Part shown: positions 305 to 3,948 of the stretch, piece by piece
How the letters are laid out: each line of letters opens with the position of its first letter
Numbering within the stretch: the first letter of the stretch is position 1
NCBI GenBank assembly: GCA_016218715.1
Contig: JACRDG010000112.1
Span: forward strand, 124,001-188,000
From: Desulfomonile tiedjei
GTDB lineage: Bacteria; Desulfobacterota; Desulfomonilia; Desulfomonilales; Desulfomonilaceae
Length of the DNA stretch: 64,000 nucleotides
Direction of reading: 5' to 3'
The notes under the pieces: model-generated
What the model was told of the DNA's origin: nothing
What the model saw: the letters and a program-made list of their open reading frames with translations, nothing else
Database searches by the model: none
Position numbers and translations under genes: made by a program

Positions 305-326
305 AATTGGTAACGAGGTCTAATCC

Positions 327-410
327 ATGATTCATAGCCAGGCACAAAGCGGGCTTCATTCGATTTCTTGGCAGTATTACTATTATTATTGGCAGCCAAG
401 AGGAGGATGA
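327..410 (+). CDS. Leader peptide with WQYYYYYWQ regulatory codons
   Basis: A 27-codon peptide gene starts with ATG at 327 behind a GAGG site at 315-318 and stops with TGA at 408. Codons 15-23 read W-Q-Y-Y-Y-Y-Y-W-Q, using TAT, TAC and three more TAT codons. Seven of 27 codons are for aromatic amino acids and none is Phe. It lies between a good promoter and an intrinsic terminator just before the DAHP synthase gene, the first enzyme of aromatic amino acid synthesis. The peptide itself is probably inert; its translation would report charged tRNA-Tyr and perhaps tRNA-Trp. Confidence 0.85.
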   Translation: MIHSQAQSGLHSISWQYYYYYWQPRGG

Positions 411-451
411 CGCGCGCTCCTGCGACCTGGTCGGAAAAACATAAAACACGA

Positions 452-484
452 AAATGCGGAGCAAGCGCTCCGCATTTTTTTTTT
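452..484 (+). terminator. Attenuator intrinsic terminator
   Basis: An 11-base perfect stem (452-462 with 467-477) closes a 4-base loop and runs into ten T residues at 475-484. The ribosome binding site of the DAHP synthase gene (GGAGGT, 485-490) begins at the next base, so this terminator sits inside the leader of the gene it controls, not after a gene. Confidence 0.9.
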
Positions 485-495
485 GGAGGTGCACG

Positions 496-1597: not shown

Positions 1598-3280
1598 TTA
1601 CAGCAGATTGCGGAGGTATTCGGCCGCGGCCCGGTCCCAGGAAAAGGTGCGTTGGATGTGGGCTATTCCGTCCACGAGCATGCGGAAATAGAGATCGGGG
1701 TCGTTCCGAGAGAGCTGAACGCCGTCTGCAAGGCTGAAGCGGAGTTCCTCGGCCATGGAACGAAAGAGCGGATAGTTCCTTCGTGCCTCGAGCCTGTCGG
1801 GGAAACCGCCGCTCCTGTCGTACTCCGTCCGGTTGATTGCGGACCAATCGGACCAGGCAGATACCATGCCGTCCTTTTCCCGGAAGAGGAGCCCTGTGGG
1901 GGCAGCGGACACGGAGTGCCAGGCGCGCGCCCTCGACTGAACCGCCCGGCTGCACGACGATACGGCCCGCAGGGGGACGATTTGTTCGAGGATACCGCCG
2001 GTCGCGCGGCCGATTCCCACCGTGCCGTTCAAATAGAATTCGTTGGCCATGCCGAATGGTTCGTACAACGATGGCATGATCCCGAATTCTGCCCCCTGCA
2101 GAGCTGAAAAAAAGCCTTCACGCCACAGGAAAGGGAGCGCCAATACCTGTTCGGGAAATCTCTCCGTTAGGTTCTTCAGGAACGACAGGCCTGCCAACCC
2201 CTCGTCGCCGGGGATCGGGAAGAACAGGAATCGCGCATCCCCTCCCCTGTCCAGAAACTCCGTGGCTGCCAGGACCGCGACGTCGTAACCTTTCTGGCGC
2301 GCGTCGTCGCGTCCGGCCATCACAAACCATACGGAATCGTCGCTCCTGAGCCGAGGAACCTTCCCCCATACGGGGGTTTGTTCGGACGACTCCAGGCGGG
2401 AGAGAGCTTGAAGGGCCTCGGTCTTCTTCTTTCGTTTCCACGCCCGAAGCTGGGTGAACGTGCCCCGCATCGCTTTCGCCACGATCGAAGTGTCAAGGGC
2501 GAGCTCCACAAAGGGGCCGTTGTCCACGCCGCAGAGTCTCGGTTCCAGCATTGCCCGCAGATGTGGGGCAATCACGGAGGCCTGGAAGAGGTCCTGGGTG
2601 AGATCCAGAGCGAACTGATCGGATACGGTGAAAACCGGCCACTGAACCACCGCAAGCCCTCTCTCCAGAACTGACGCCTCTCTCCGGCCCGCAGGTCCGG
2701 GGCACGTGGCGGGGTCGATCCCGAAGATCCGGAGCGTGTCGTCGCTCACTGCTCCGCTGTCATAGCTGTTGTGCAGGGTAAGGAACAGCCGGTGCCCACC
2801 ACCGCCTCCTGCCAGAGCCAGCGCAGCCGTAGCCGCCTCCCAGTCTTGCATCGCGAGAATCCAGGTGGAATCCTGGTCGATCACCTCGATGGCCCGAGCC
2901 ACACTCGCGCCGAAAAACAGGGCGTCTCGCGCCAGATTGGCGCCGATATCCCCCGAGGTAATCCCCACGTCATAGGGATGACGCTCTCCGCCGAAGAACT
3001 GGCGATCCTCCGCGTCGAGGAAGTACCAACCGATCGCACTCACATACCGTCGAACGGTTACCTTGACGGTGCGATCGTAGAATGGCACCTCGGTTTCTCC
3101 CACGTGCTCGGTTTCGAGAGAGGCTGTCTTTGCAATCTTGTGGTGGTACGGAGTGATTACGATCGTCTCCACCCCGGAAGCCGTCTGAGTCCGGCTTGGA
3201 AGCTGCCCCATCACCGCGGCTATCCCTCCGCAAGGGGCAAACGGGGTTTCGTACGTGACAAAAGCTATTTTCCGACTCAA
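1598..3280 (-). CDS. Glycogen/starch synthase-like glycosyltransferase (GT5-type)
   Basis: Likely transfers glucose from a nucleotide sugar to a glucan or other acceptor in the cytosol. The 560-residue protein has the two-domain GT-B layout of glycogen synthases. KIAFVTYETPFAPCGGIA at the N-terminus corresponds to the KxGGL loop, MQDWEAATAALAL...LTLHNSYDSG to the HDWxT...HN segment, and PSLYEPFGMANEFY to the C-terminal E-x7-E donor site. The Lys of KxGGL is absent (APCGG), so classic glycogen synthase activity is not assured. TTG at 3280 follows GGGAGG by five bases; the frame stays open to 3421 but the added residues match nothing. Confidence 0.75.
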   Translation of the reverse strand: MSRKIAFVTYETPFAPCGGIAAVMGQLPSRTQTASGVETIVITPYHHKIAKTASLETEHVGETEVPFYDRTVKVTVRRYVSAIGWYFLDAEDRQFFGGERHPYDVGITSGDIGANLARDALFFGASVARAIEVIDQDSTWILAMQDWEAATAALALAGGGGGHRLFLTLHNSYDSGAVSDDTLRIFGIDPATCPGPAGRREASVLERGLAVVQWPVFTVSDQFALDLTQDLFQASVIAPHLRAMLEPRLCGVDNGPFVELALDTSIVAKAMRGTFTQLRAWKRKKKTEALQALSRLESSEQTPVWGKVPRLRSDDSVWFVMAGRDDARQKGYDVAVLAATEFLDRGGDARFLFFPIPGDEGLAGLSFLKNLTERFPEQVLALPFLWREGFFSALQGAEFGIMPSLYEPFGMANEFYLNGTVGIGRATGGILEQIVPLRAVSSCSRAVQSRARAWHSVSAAPTGLLFREKDGMVSAWSDWSAINRTEYDRSGGFPDRLEARRNYPLFRSMAEELRFSLADGVQLSRNDPDLYFRMLVDGIAHIQRTFSWDRAAAEYLRNLL

Positions 3281-3948
3281 CGGCTCCTCCCTGGCAGCGG
3301 ACGCGTCGCGAGAGTCATCGAATTTGCTGTTTGAGGAGGGCTCGGGCCACCTGCTTACCTCCAACTGCCAATCCTGAGGCGAGCTGTTCGGAGAATAGAG
3401 CGGGGCGGTAACCCTCTGCAATAGAAGCGATTTTCCTCAGAATGAAGGATACGTCACGGCCATCGCCGCTGTCAATCACCTTCTTGGATCGCGCTGTCGC
3501 GAGCTTTGGTGCTTCGCTGTCGTTCCCAGCAACAGGAGGTAGCGTGGAGCTGAGGACGAAAAGACGGTCGATCGCAGTTTTTGCTGAACCTGCAAGGACC
3601 TCAAGTGTCTTAGTGTTCAAGGACGGGGCACAACGAACACTGTCAAGCGACAATTGTCCCGCCGGATTTCAAGCTCGTCAAGAGACGTCTCCAGTTCAAT
3701 TGACAAGCTTACCGCCCCGTCCTTTCGGATATACCCTTCGCACGCATTTCGTCCGACCTCCCTTTTCAGGCGAGAAAGTCTCAATCCATACGGCGAACAT
3801 AGGACAATGAATTTATACAAAAGGGCTCGGAGCTATCCGCTTGACGGAGGTCATGCGGTGCGGTATCCCTGCGTCTGCCGTTCGGTCGACACGGTTGAAC
3901 GGTCCGCGGTTCCGACGCTTCCACAGTTGCAAGGTCTCTGGCGACGTT
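3281..3948. other. 667-base region without a clear gene
   Basis: This region lies between the divergent GT5-like gene and the methyltransferase gene. Two minus-strand reading frames (3617-3820 and 3315-3653, in different frames and overlapping) have plausible composition, for example SIELETSLDELEI. They could be a frameshifted remnant of a small protein gene, but neither has a convincing ribosome site or a family I recognise. No terminator or promoter stands out. Confidence 0.3.

Follow-up and report, generated by a model that had tools for sequence, protein, structure and literature searches.

The type I-beta DAHP synthase gene near the start of the analysed stretch of Desulfomonile tiedjei DNA (64,000 nucleotides, hereafter the window) is, with high probability, controlled by a ribosome-mediated transcription attenuator, a conclusion based on sequence, in silico folding and comparison with relatives. 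The locus was found in silico to combine a leader ORF containing codons for products of the pathway, a terminator before the gene, an antiterminator that excludes this terminator, and a layout that is kept in relatives. An earlier reading of the sequence alone had linked attenuation to charged aromatic tRNA, and the sequence, folding and comparative evidence all support that link. We infer that the element responds to amino acids in vivo, with Tyr as its main signal and a contribution from the Trp codons.

Within positions 1-500 of the window lie a promoter-like site, a 27-codon ORF, a hairpin followed by a U-run, a GGAGG and the start of the DAHP synthase gene. The features are:

276-304, + strand: sigma-70-like promoter, TTGACC / 17 / TATCAT, 10 of 12 consensus matches
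316-319, + strand: ribosome-binding site of the leader, GAGG (by eye)
327-410, + strand: leader peptide ORF of 27 codons, MIHSQAQSGLHSISWQYYYYYWQPRGG (ORF translation; presumably translated in the cell)
369-392, + strand: control codons W-Q-Y5-W, with five Tyr, two Trp and zero Phe
335-428, + strand: 1:2 hairpin, predicted to hide the antiterminator arm without a ribosome; -34.0 kcal/mol, z -3.48, computed for the window only
412-424, + strand: 5' arm of the antiterminator, starting right after the leader stop (folding)
455-468, + strand: 3' arm of the antiterminator, overlapping the terminator 5' arm and loop (folding)
450-484, + strand: intrinsic terminator with a 13-pair stem (450-479), a loop of 4 and a T-run to 484 (consensus and folding)
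485-489, + strand: ribosome-binding site of the DAHP synthase gene, GGAGG, abutting the U-run (by eye)
496-1509, + strand: type I-beta DAHP synthase, 337 aa (profile matches and structure match)

The promoter-like site is the only one within 1-2000, where shuffles gave an expectation of 0.4, and a TTGACA-like box occurs at a comparable distance in relatives (by eye). The GAGG of the leader is found at the matching place in eight of nine relatives and is absent in L006 (by eye, from the alignment). Within the leader, the Trp codons occupy 369-371 and 390-392, the Tyr codons 375-389 and the stop 408-410. The terminator has a folding energy of -19.6 kcal/mol (z -5.7). The promoter, 27-codon leader, terminator and adjoining ribosome site proposed in the sequence-only reading were all recovered, although the promoter lies just outside the span of 311-495 assigned there to the element.

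The encoded enzyme scores above the curated cut-offs of NF006421 (494.2 vs 335 bits) and TIGR01361 (399.2 vs 267.75 bits), and its residues 1-335 match Thermotoga maritima 1rzm/3pg9. The ATG at 496 was chosen by homology; the mechanical ORF start is 454. The next family-matching ORF (1598-3421), glycogen synthase-like and under the cut-offs of those families, is on the opposite strand, and the DAHP synthase gene is therefore apparently transcribed alone. Upstream of the leader, an ankyrin-repeat ORF on the same strand ends at 163.

Ribosome states were folded with the front edge of the ribosome placed 12 bases beyond the first base of the A-site codon, and one base more at the stop. With the ribosome stalled at W15, Y17, Y19, Y21 or W22 (five of the seven aromatic codons; front edges 381-402), the antiterminator was the main fold in every case, at -15.9 to -17.2 kcal/mol (RNA to base 467). 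It engages the terminator 5' arm, and folding of 409-470 gave 12 pairs and -18.0 kcal/mol. A ribosome at the stop covers the RNA to 420, which abolishes the antiterminator in silico and leaves the terminator alone; the fold without a ribosome consists of the 1:2 hairpin and the terminator. The mutually exclusive hairpins of the sequence-only reading were thus borne out, in that the antiterminator excludes both the 1:2 hairpin and the terminator, which are compatible with each other. For a ribosome at the last Trp and RNA extending to base 484, the terminator already gives the lowest energy. Because the terminator (-19.6) is slightly more stable than the antiterminator (-18.0), readthrough would need co-transcriptional, kinetic folding. 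The antiterminator stretch by itself was no more stable than its shuffles (z -0.72).

We propose a working model in which RNA polymerase would initiate at about 311, with a ribosome trailing through the leader. Under shortage of charged tRNA-Tyr (or of tRNA-Trp, at the ends of the run), the ribosome would stall inside 369-392 with its front edge short of 412, and 412-424 could pair with 455-468 once the latter is synthesised. The terminator 5' arm would then be sequestered and transcription would continue into the DAHP synthase gene. When the aromatic tRNAs are charged, the ribosome would reach the stop at 408-410 and mask most of the antiterminator arm, allowing the terminator at 450-479 to form and the transcript to finish at the U-run. 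In the absence of leader translation, the long 1:2 hairpin would conceal the antiterminator arm, leading again to termination.

The background frequency of such an arrangement was assessed in the window and at 80 named loci (the 80 top-ranking of at least 592 matches in a genome-collection scan, 79 of them long enough). When both strands of the whole 64 kb were screened for ORFs of 8-50 codons, the window leader proved to have the densest aromatic run, with 7 in 9 codons against 6 for the runner-up. The ORF criterion alone was positive in 11 of 80 named upstreams and in 46 of 1580 shuffles; because of this background of about 3%, we used a joint test that required five or more F/Y/W within 8 codons together with a terminator at or below -10 kcal/mol. 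One of 566 window tiles was positive, namely the leader's own, and the other 565 were negative. Moreover, 54 of 144 testable upstream stretches were positive, a count that takes in the Y5W locus of G266, compared with 7 of 1934 other tiles (from the 80 named loci), in a non-random sample whose rates are therefore not phylum-wide estimates. Five of the seven positive control tiles lie ahead of a gene whose immediate downstream neighbour is the DAHP synthase gene (by eye). No Rfam 15 family reached its gathering score in the window, and there was none at E <= 1 for 250-520. Two known classes did not fit the window element: a T-box riboswitch, for which no Rfam family matched, and a C. glutamicum aroR-type Phe-Tyr-Phe leader, since the window leader has no Phe.

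Genome tallies were obtained by collating the DAHP synthase scan with the leader-plus-terminator test. The I-beta enzyme is present in 17 of 18 genomes of the same family (own genome included), G009 having a weak, distant match only. In all 17, one or more copies have an aromatic leader with a terminator upstream, which amounts to 23 positive loci; the leaderless copies among those tested are L002, which lies inside the putative trp operon of the own genome, and L125 in G006. Direct orthologs were fetched from nine other same-family genomes (73-82% identity), and each has an aromatic leader of 23-29 codons and a near-identical terminator upstream, as exemplified by MINSWQFSAFSQFFGWYYFTSLGG, MISSDMHSVAFRYFWWYYFGPPRRCLRVL, MDRTYQLSAFGFYFGWYYFPPYEVARSG and MINGFQISAVNRFFRFYYFVPPGG. 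The 10-sequence alignment revealed a nearly invariant terminator stem core, and relatives retain, beside the leader stop, a GCGCGCTCC-like element that is complementary to the terminator. The nine orthologous leaders have mixed Phe/Tyr runs, five of them with Trp; within this family the aromatic run is shared and the Tyr5 run is private to the window. By its own terms the sequence-only reading would have fallen if close relatives lacked the Tyr run or the hairpins: the check on the hairpins did not refute it, and the Tyr run is indeed not kept, other aromatic codons taking its place. Since the orthologs carry mixed runs, the older leader signal was probably "aromatic", and Tyr/Trp would be the setting of the window lineage.

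A tyrA-like gene follows the ortholog of the window gene in five relatives. In longer fetches, aroA-, aroE- and aroC-like genes come next in four of these five (by eye), and an aroK-like gene is found in the three whose stretch extends far enough (by eye). Each of the five tyrA-linked leaders has F, Y and W, although L013 carries its Trp at codon 2 and not within the cluster; the leaders of loci lacking tyrA (the window, and L007, L008, L009 and L011 of one genus) have only two of the three. This association reflects two events at most, and thus is a lead rather than a law.

Arm pairing was examined across lineages by a duplex test, in which the stretch from -39 to +21 around the leader stop was paired with the terminator 5' arm and compared with its own shuffles (p <= 0.05). 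It was positive in 31 of the 54 loci, with a median z of -2.45, compared with 1 of 54 for a control taken from upstream of the leader; for 26 hand-chosen lineage representatives the counts were 17 and 1. Pairing is strong in most sister-family loci and also at several second, short DAHP synthase loci, such as L003 (z -5.5). In the closest group the window alone passes (p 0.025), the nine orthologs giving p values of 0.095-0.29. The 23 failures are these nine orthologs together with L021, L127, L131, L138, L141, L144, L145, L146, L042, L045, L046, L065, L070 and L157.

Which amino acids are encoded was judged from the best 12-residue cluster of each of the 54 leaders: 40 have Phe+Tyr+Trp, 11 Phe+Tyr, 2 Tyr+Trp (the window and G266) and 1 Phe+Trp. 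Because 40 of 54 mix all three, the Tyr/Trp set of the window looks like a local re-tuning. In 10 aligned sister-family leaders the Y-F-W codons occupy one column each, while the flanks swap Phe and Tyr, and the triplet is found in 15 of 18 sister-family leaders (exceptions L019, L021 and L120). A fixed Y-F-W with neighbouring Phe/Tyr swaps is expected if "aromatic", not one residue, is selected. Among five close sister-family leaders, 21 codon changes are silent and 28 are not; as most are not silent, the leader peptide as such appears to be under weak constraint. Whole leaders contain all three residues in 9 of 10 single-copy genomes, and in multi-copy genomes 5 of 13 leaders do so (7 of 10 and 5 of 13 for the 12-residue cluster). 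In this comparison, completeness is 81-86% for six of the ten single-copy genomes, and a single genus supplies four of the six other multi-copy genomes. That single-copy genomes retain all three residues is therefore only a lead.

The Tyr run could instead be a general brake within the attenuator, acting by slow decoding and constant pausing, with Trp or overall translation speed as the true signal. The Trp codons at both ends of the run would fit this, as would C. glutamicum aroR, whose leader has Tyr yet is reportedly unaffected by Tyr availability in the account given in PMC11802643. We nevertheless consider a brake improbable, because Tyr (208) and Phe (214) far outnumber Trp (56) across the 54 leaders and because G266, from a different family, has its own Tyr5-Trp leader (VYYYYYWLTYR) at a DAHP synthase locus. 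The Y5W pattern occurs in 4 of 395 genomes, one of which, G419, is a plain TAC repeat; the G266 leader showed no arm pairing in the duplex test.

We also weighed arrest by the nascent peptide, as in TnaC, where aromatics rather than empty tRNA would be sensed and the aromatic content would be a peptide signal. TnaC-type control activates genes at high amino acid, a logic that fits breakdown and not synthesis. The aligned sister-family leaders do share a fixed PPVG ending in addition to the Y-F-W core, but the PPVG codons pair with the terminator arm, so that antiterminator pairing explains the shared ending, and own-family leaders diverge widely in peptide yet stay aromatic. We therefore regard peptide arrest as quite unlikely. 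Finally, it is hardly credible that the hairpin is a constitutive terminator, or that of the upstream gene, with an aromatic ORF by chance: the ankyrin-repeat ORF ending at 163 lies on the same strand, but a promoter-like site separates that gene from the terminator, all 17 same-family genomes that have the I-beta enzyme show an aromatic ORF with a terminator, and none of the other 565 window tiles passes the joint test, so this reading is disfavoured.

Attenuation through aromatic codons, the reading we prefer, is suggested beyond the family. Of 20 testable sister-family genomes, 18 are positive, the misses being L124 (a leader is present, but its U-run breaks the rule) and L032 (no leader); second copies without a leader occur in four sister-family genomes (L119, L121, L123 and L129). 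Two of nine genomes from other families of the phylum are positive, L132 and L127, the latter weak and without arm pairing. L149 has a leader, and its hairpins fail the rule. Of the 79 named loci that were long enough, taken from the capped list described above, 10 are positive: L042 (Syntrophaceae), L046 (Geomonas propionica), L049 (Geobacteraceae), L079 (Syntrophobacterales), L081 (Desulfuromusa), L045, L062 and L054 (delta-proteobacteria), L065 (Calditrichota) and L070 (Chloroflexi). Five more loci (L038, L040, L059, L064 and L067) have the leader farther upstream; there it stands ahead of another gene, either chorismate-mutase-like, prephenate-dehydratase-like or of some other type, with the DAHP synthase gene after it in presumed operons (by eye). 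These five are among the seven positive control tiles.

Two further observations concern leader placement. In the Chloroflexota-type records L040, L067, L038 and L064, the leader precedes a pheA-like or chorismate-mutase-like gene, and then DAHP synthase. In L037 (genome G258), a frame ending in ESYYYYYWRGSP and a terminator-like hairpin stand before an ADP-forming acyl-CoA synthetase-like gene (by eye), which suggests that Tyr/Trp leaders may extend beyond DAHP synthases.

The own genome encodes three I-beta DAHP synthases. Copy 1 is that of the window, with the Tyr/Trp leader; copy 2 is followed by pheA and has a Phe/Tyr leader, MNARYFSYYYFYFASACAPEEDQA, upstream; copy 3 is located behind trpE, D, C, B, A and G and is followed by aroA, aroE, aroKB and aroC. 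The latter region and a further gene considered below are placed as follows:

Contig C60, L118:3062-15385, - strand: trp-aro gene row with a fused shikimate kinase/dehydroquinate synthase (profile matches; those of trpE and aroE fall under curated cut-offs)
Contig C34, L174:4081-5676, - strand: gene for a 531-residue protein (leader in L166 and L176)

An ORF upstream of trpE contains GWWWWYD (Trp4) and is followed by a hairpin and T-run (by eye). If the trp stretch is one operon, three differently coded leaders would cover the three isozymes, as read from sequence, and this three-way split could be an RNA-level counterpart of the AroF/AroG/AroH split of E. coli. The only PDH_N (TyrA) match of the own genome, at L158 on contig C19, is divergent and separately placed, in contrast to the aroF-tyrA order of the five relatives; it is near the contig end, where at most 137 bases upstream of the frame were readable in the search for a tyrA leader. 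At L118:2285-2375 (- strand) and at L149, two successive hairpins lie between an aromatic leader and a short DAHP synthase gene (by eye), perhaps forming a double terminator.

The gene for the 531-residue protein is preceded by a second putative aromatic attenuator, comprising the leader MRTQSSAAYYYYFSTRSGTLLRFG and a terminator. The protein has no confident Pfam or NCBIfam family. Orthologs were found in 10 of the 11 other same-family genomes searched and in none of six sister-family genomes, and all ten are preceded by a leader rich in Phe and Tyr, identified by script in nine and by eye in L182. The predicted model (mean pLDDT 73) contains a GNAT-like domain at residues 66-201, with a best structural match of Z 10.4 and rmsd 4.4 over 134 residues in a comparison that barely covered residues outside this domain. 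The leader predicts a role for this protein tied to Phe/Tyr supply.

The trpL and pheL attenuators of E. coli respond to a single amino acid each and control terminal-branch genes. The window element has the same logic of leader, antiterminator and terminator, but precedes the gene for the first common step, and its related leaders are mixed. Neshat et al. (2014) reportedly described the aroR leader before aroF in C. glutamicum. As presented in PMC11802643 and PMC4046766, this is a Phe-Tyr-Phe leader; PMC11802643, which also names the trpL and pheL attenuators, reports ribosome-stalling attenuation that responds to limitation of Phe and not of Tyr, while PMC7356990 refers to regulation by both phenylalanine and tyrosine. 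What aroR and the window have in common is leader-peptide control, through aromatic codons, of a DAHP synthase gene, but aroR is actinobacterial and lacks Trp, whereas the window has five Tyr and two Trp and no Phe. Most leaders related to that of the window hold Phe, Tyr and Trp, unlike aroR as described in these sources. The predicted uORFC-13-1 motif of Acholeplasma likewise places a uORF and terminator ahead of aroF, with at least one Phe codon; the relevant section of PMC8632094 gives 24 representatives from one genus and environmental sequences and names Phe alone. The ilvB-II uORF motif of Corynebacterium, multivalent according to the part of PMC11109978 devoted to it, also has codons for several end products of a branched pathway in one leader, but these are branched-chain and not aromatic. 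The passages on leaders in PMC1262725, PMC2965389 and PMC11109978 contain no DAHP synthase leader. Among the matches listed in a search of open-access literature, subscription papers being outside its scope, we found neither a Phe/Tyr/Trp leader nor such leaders in the phylum of the window. In the sequence-only reading, a Tyr5 leader for a type I-beta DAHP synthase was not known to have been described, a claim now narrowed, since DAHP synthase leaders as such have precedents in aroR and Acholeplasma aroF. By analogy, the window element would act as a leader-peptide attenuator in the manner of trpL and aroR, a likeness of mode for which no homology is claimed.

Control of the first aromatic step is known mainly from enterobacterial repressors and feedback inhibition. 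Among attenuators controlling this step, the account in PMC11802643 provides one actinobacterial case. We hypothesize, with about even confidence, that a pan-aromatic OR-gate attenuator is the usual control of shikimate entry over much of the phylum of the window and in some Chloroflexota and Calditrichota, that leaders were re-coded to different subsets when a lineage acquired several DAHP synthases or its aro operon broke up, and that the isozymes of the own genome are split accordingly, as are AroF, AroG and AroH of E. coli. The same leader logic would tie the conserved 531-residue protein to Phe/Tyr supply. If true, a multi-aromatic leader would explain how one enzyme feeding three products responds to a shortage of any of them, and leader re-coding would be a sequence-readable record of the division of labour among isozymes.
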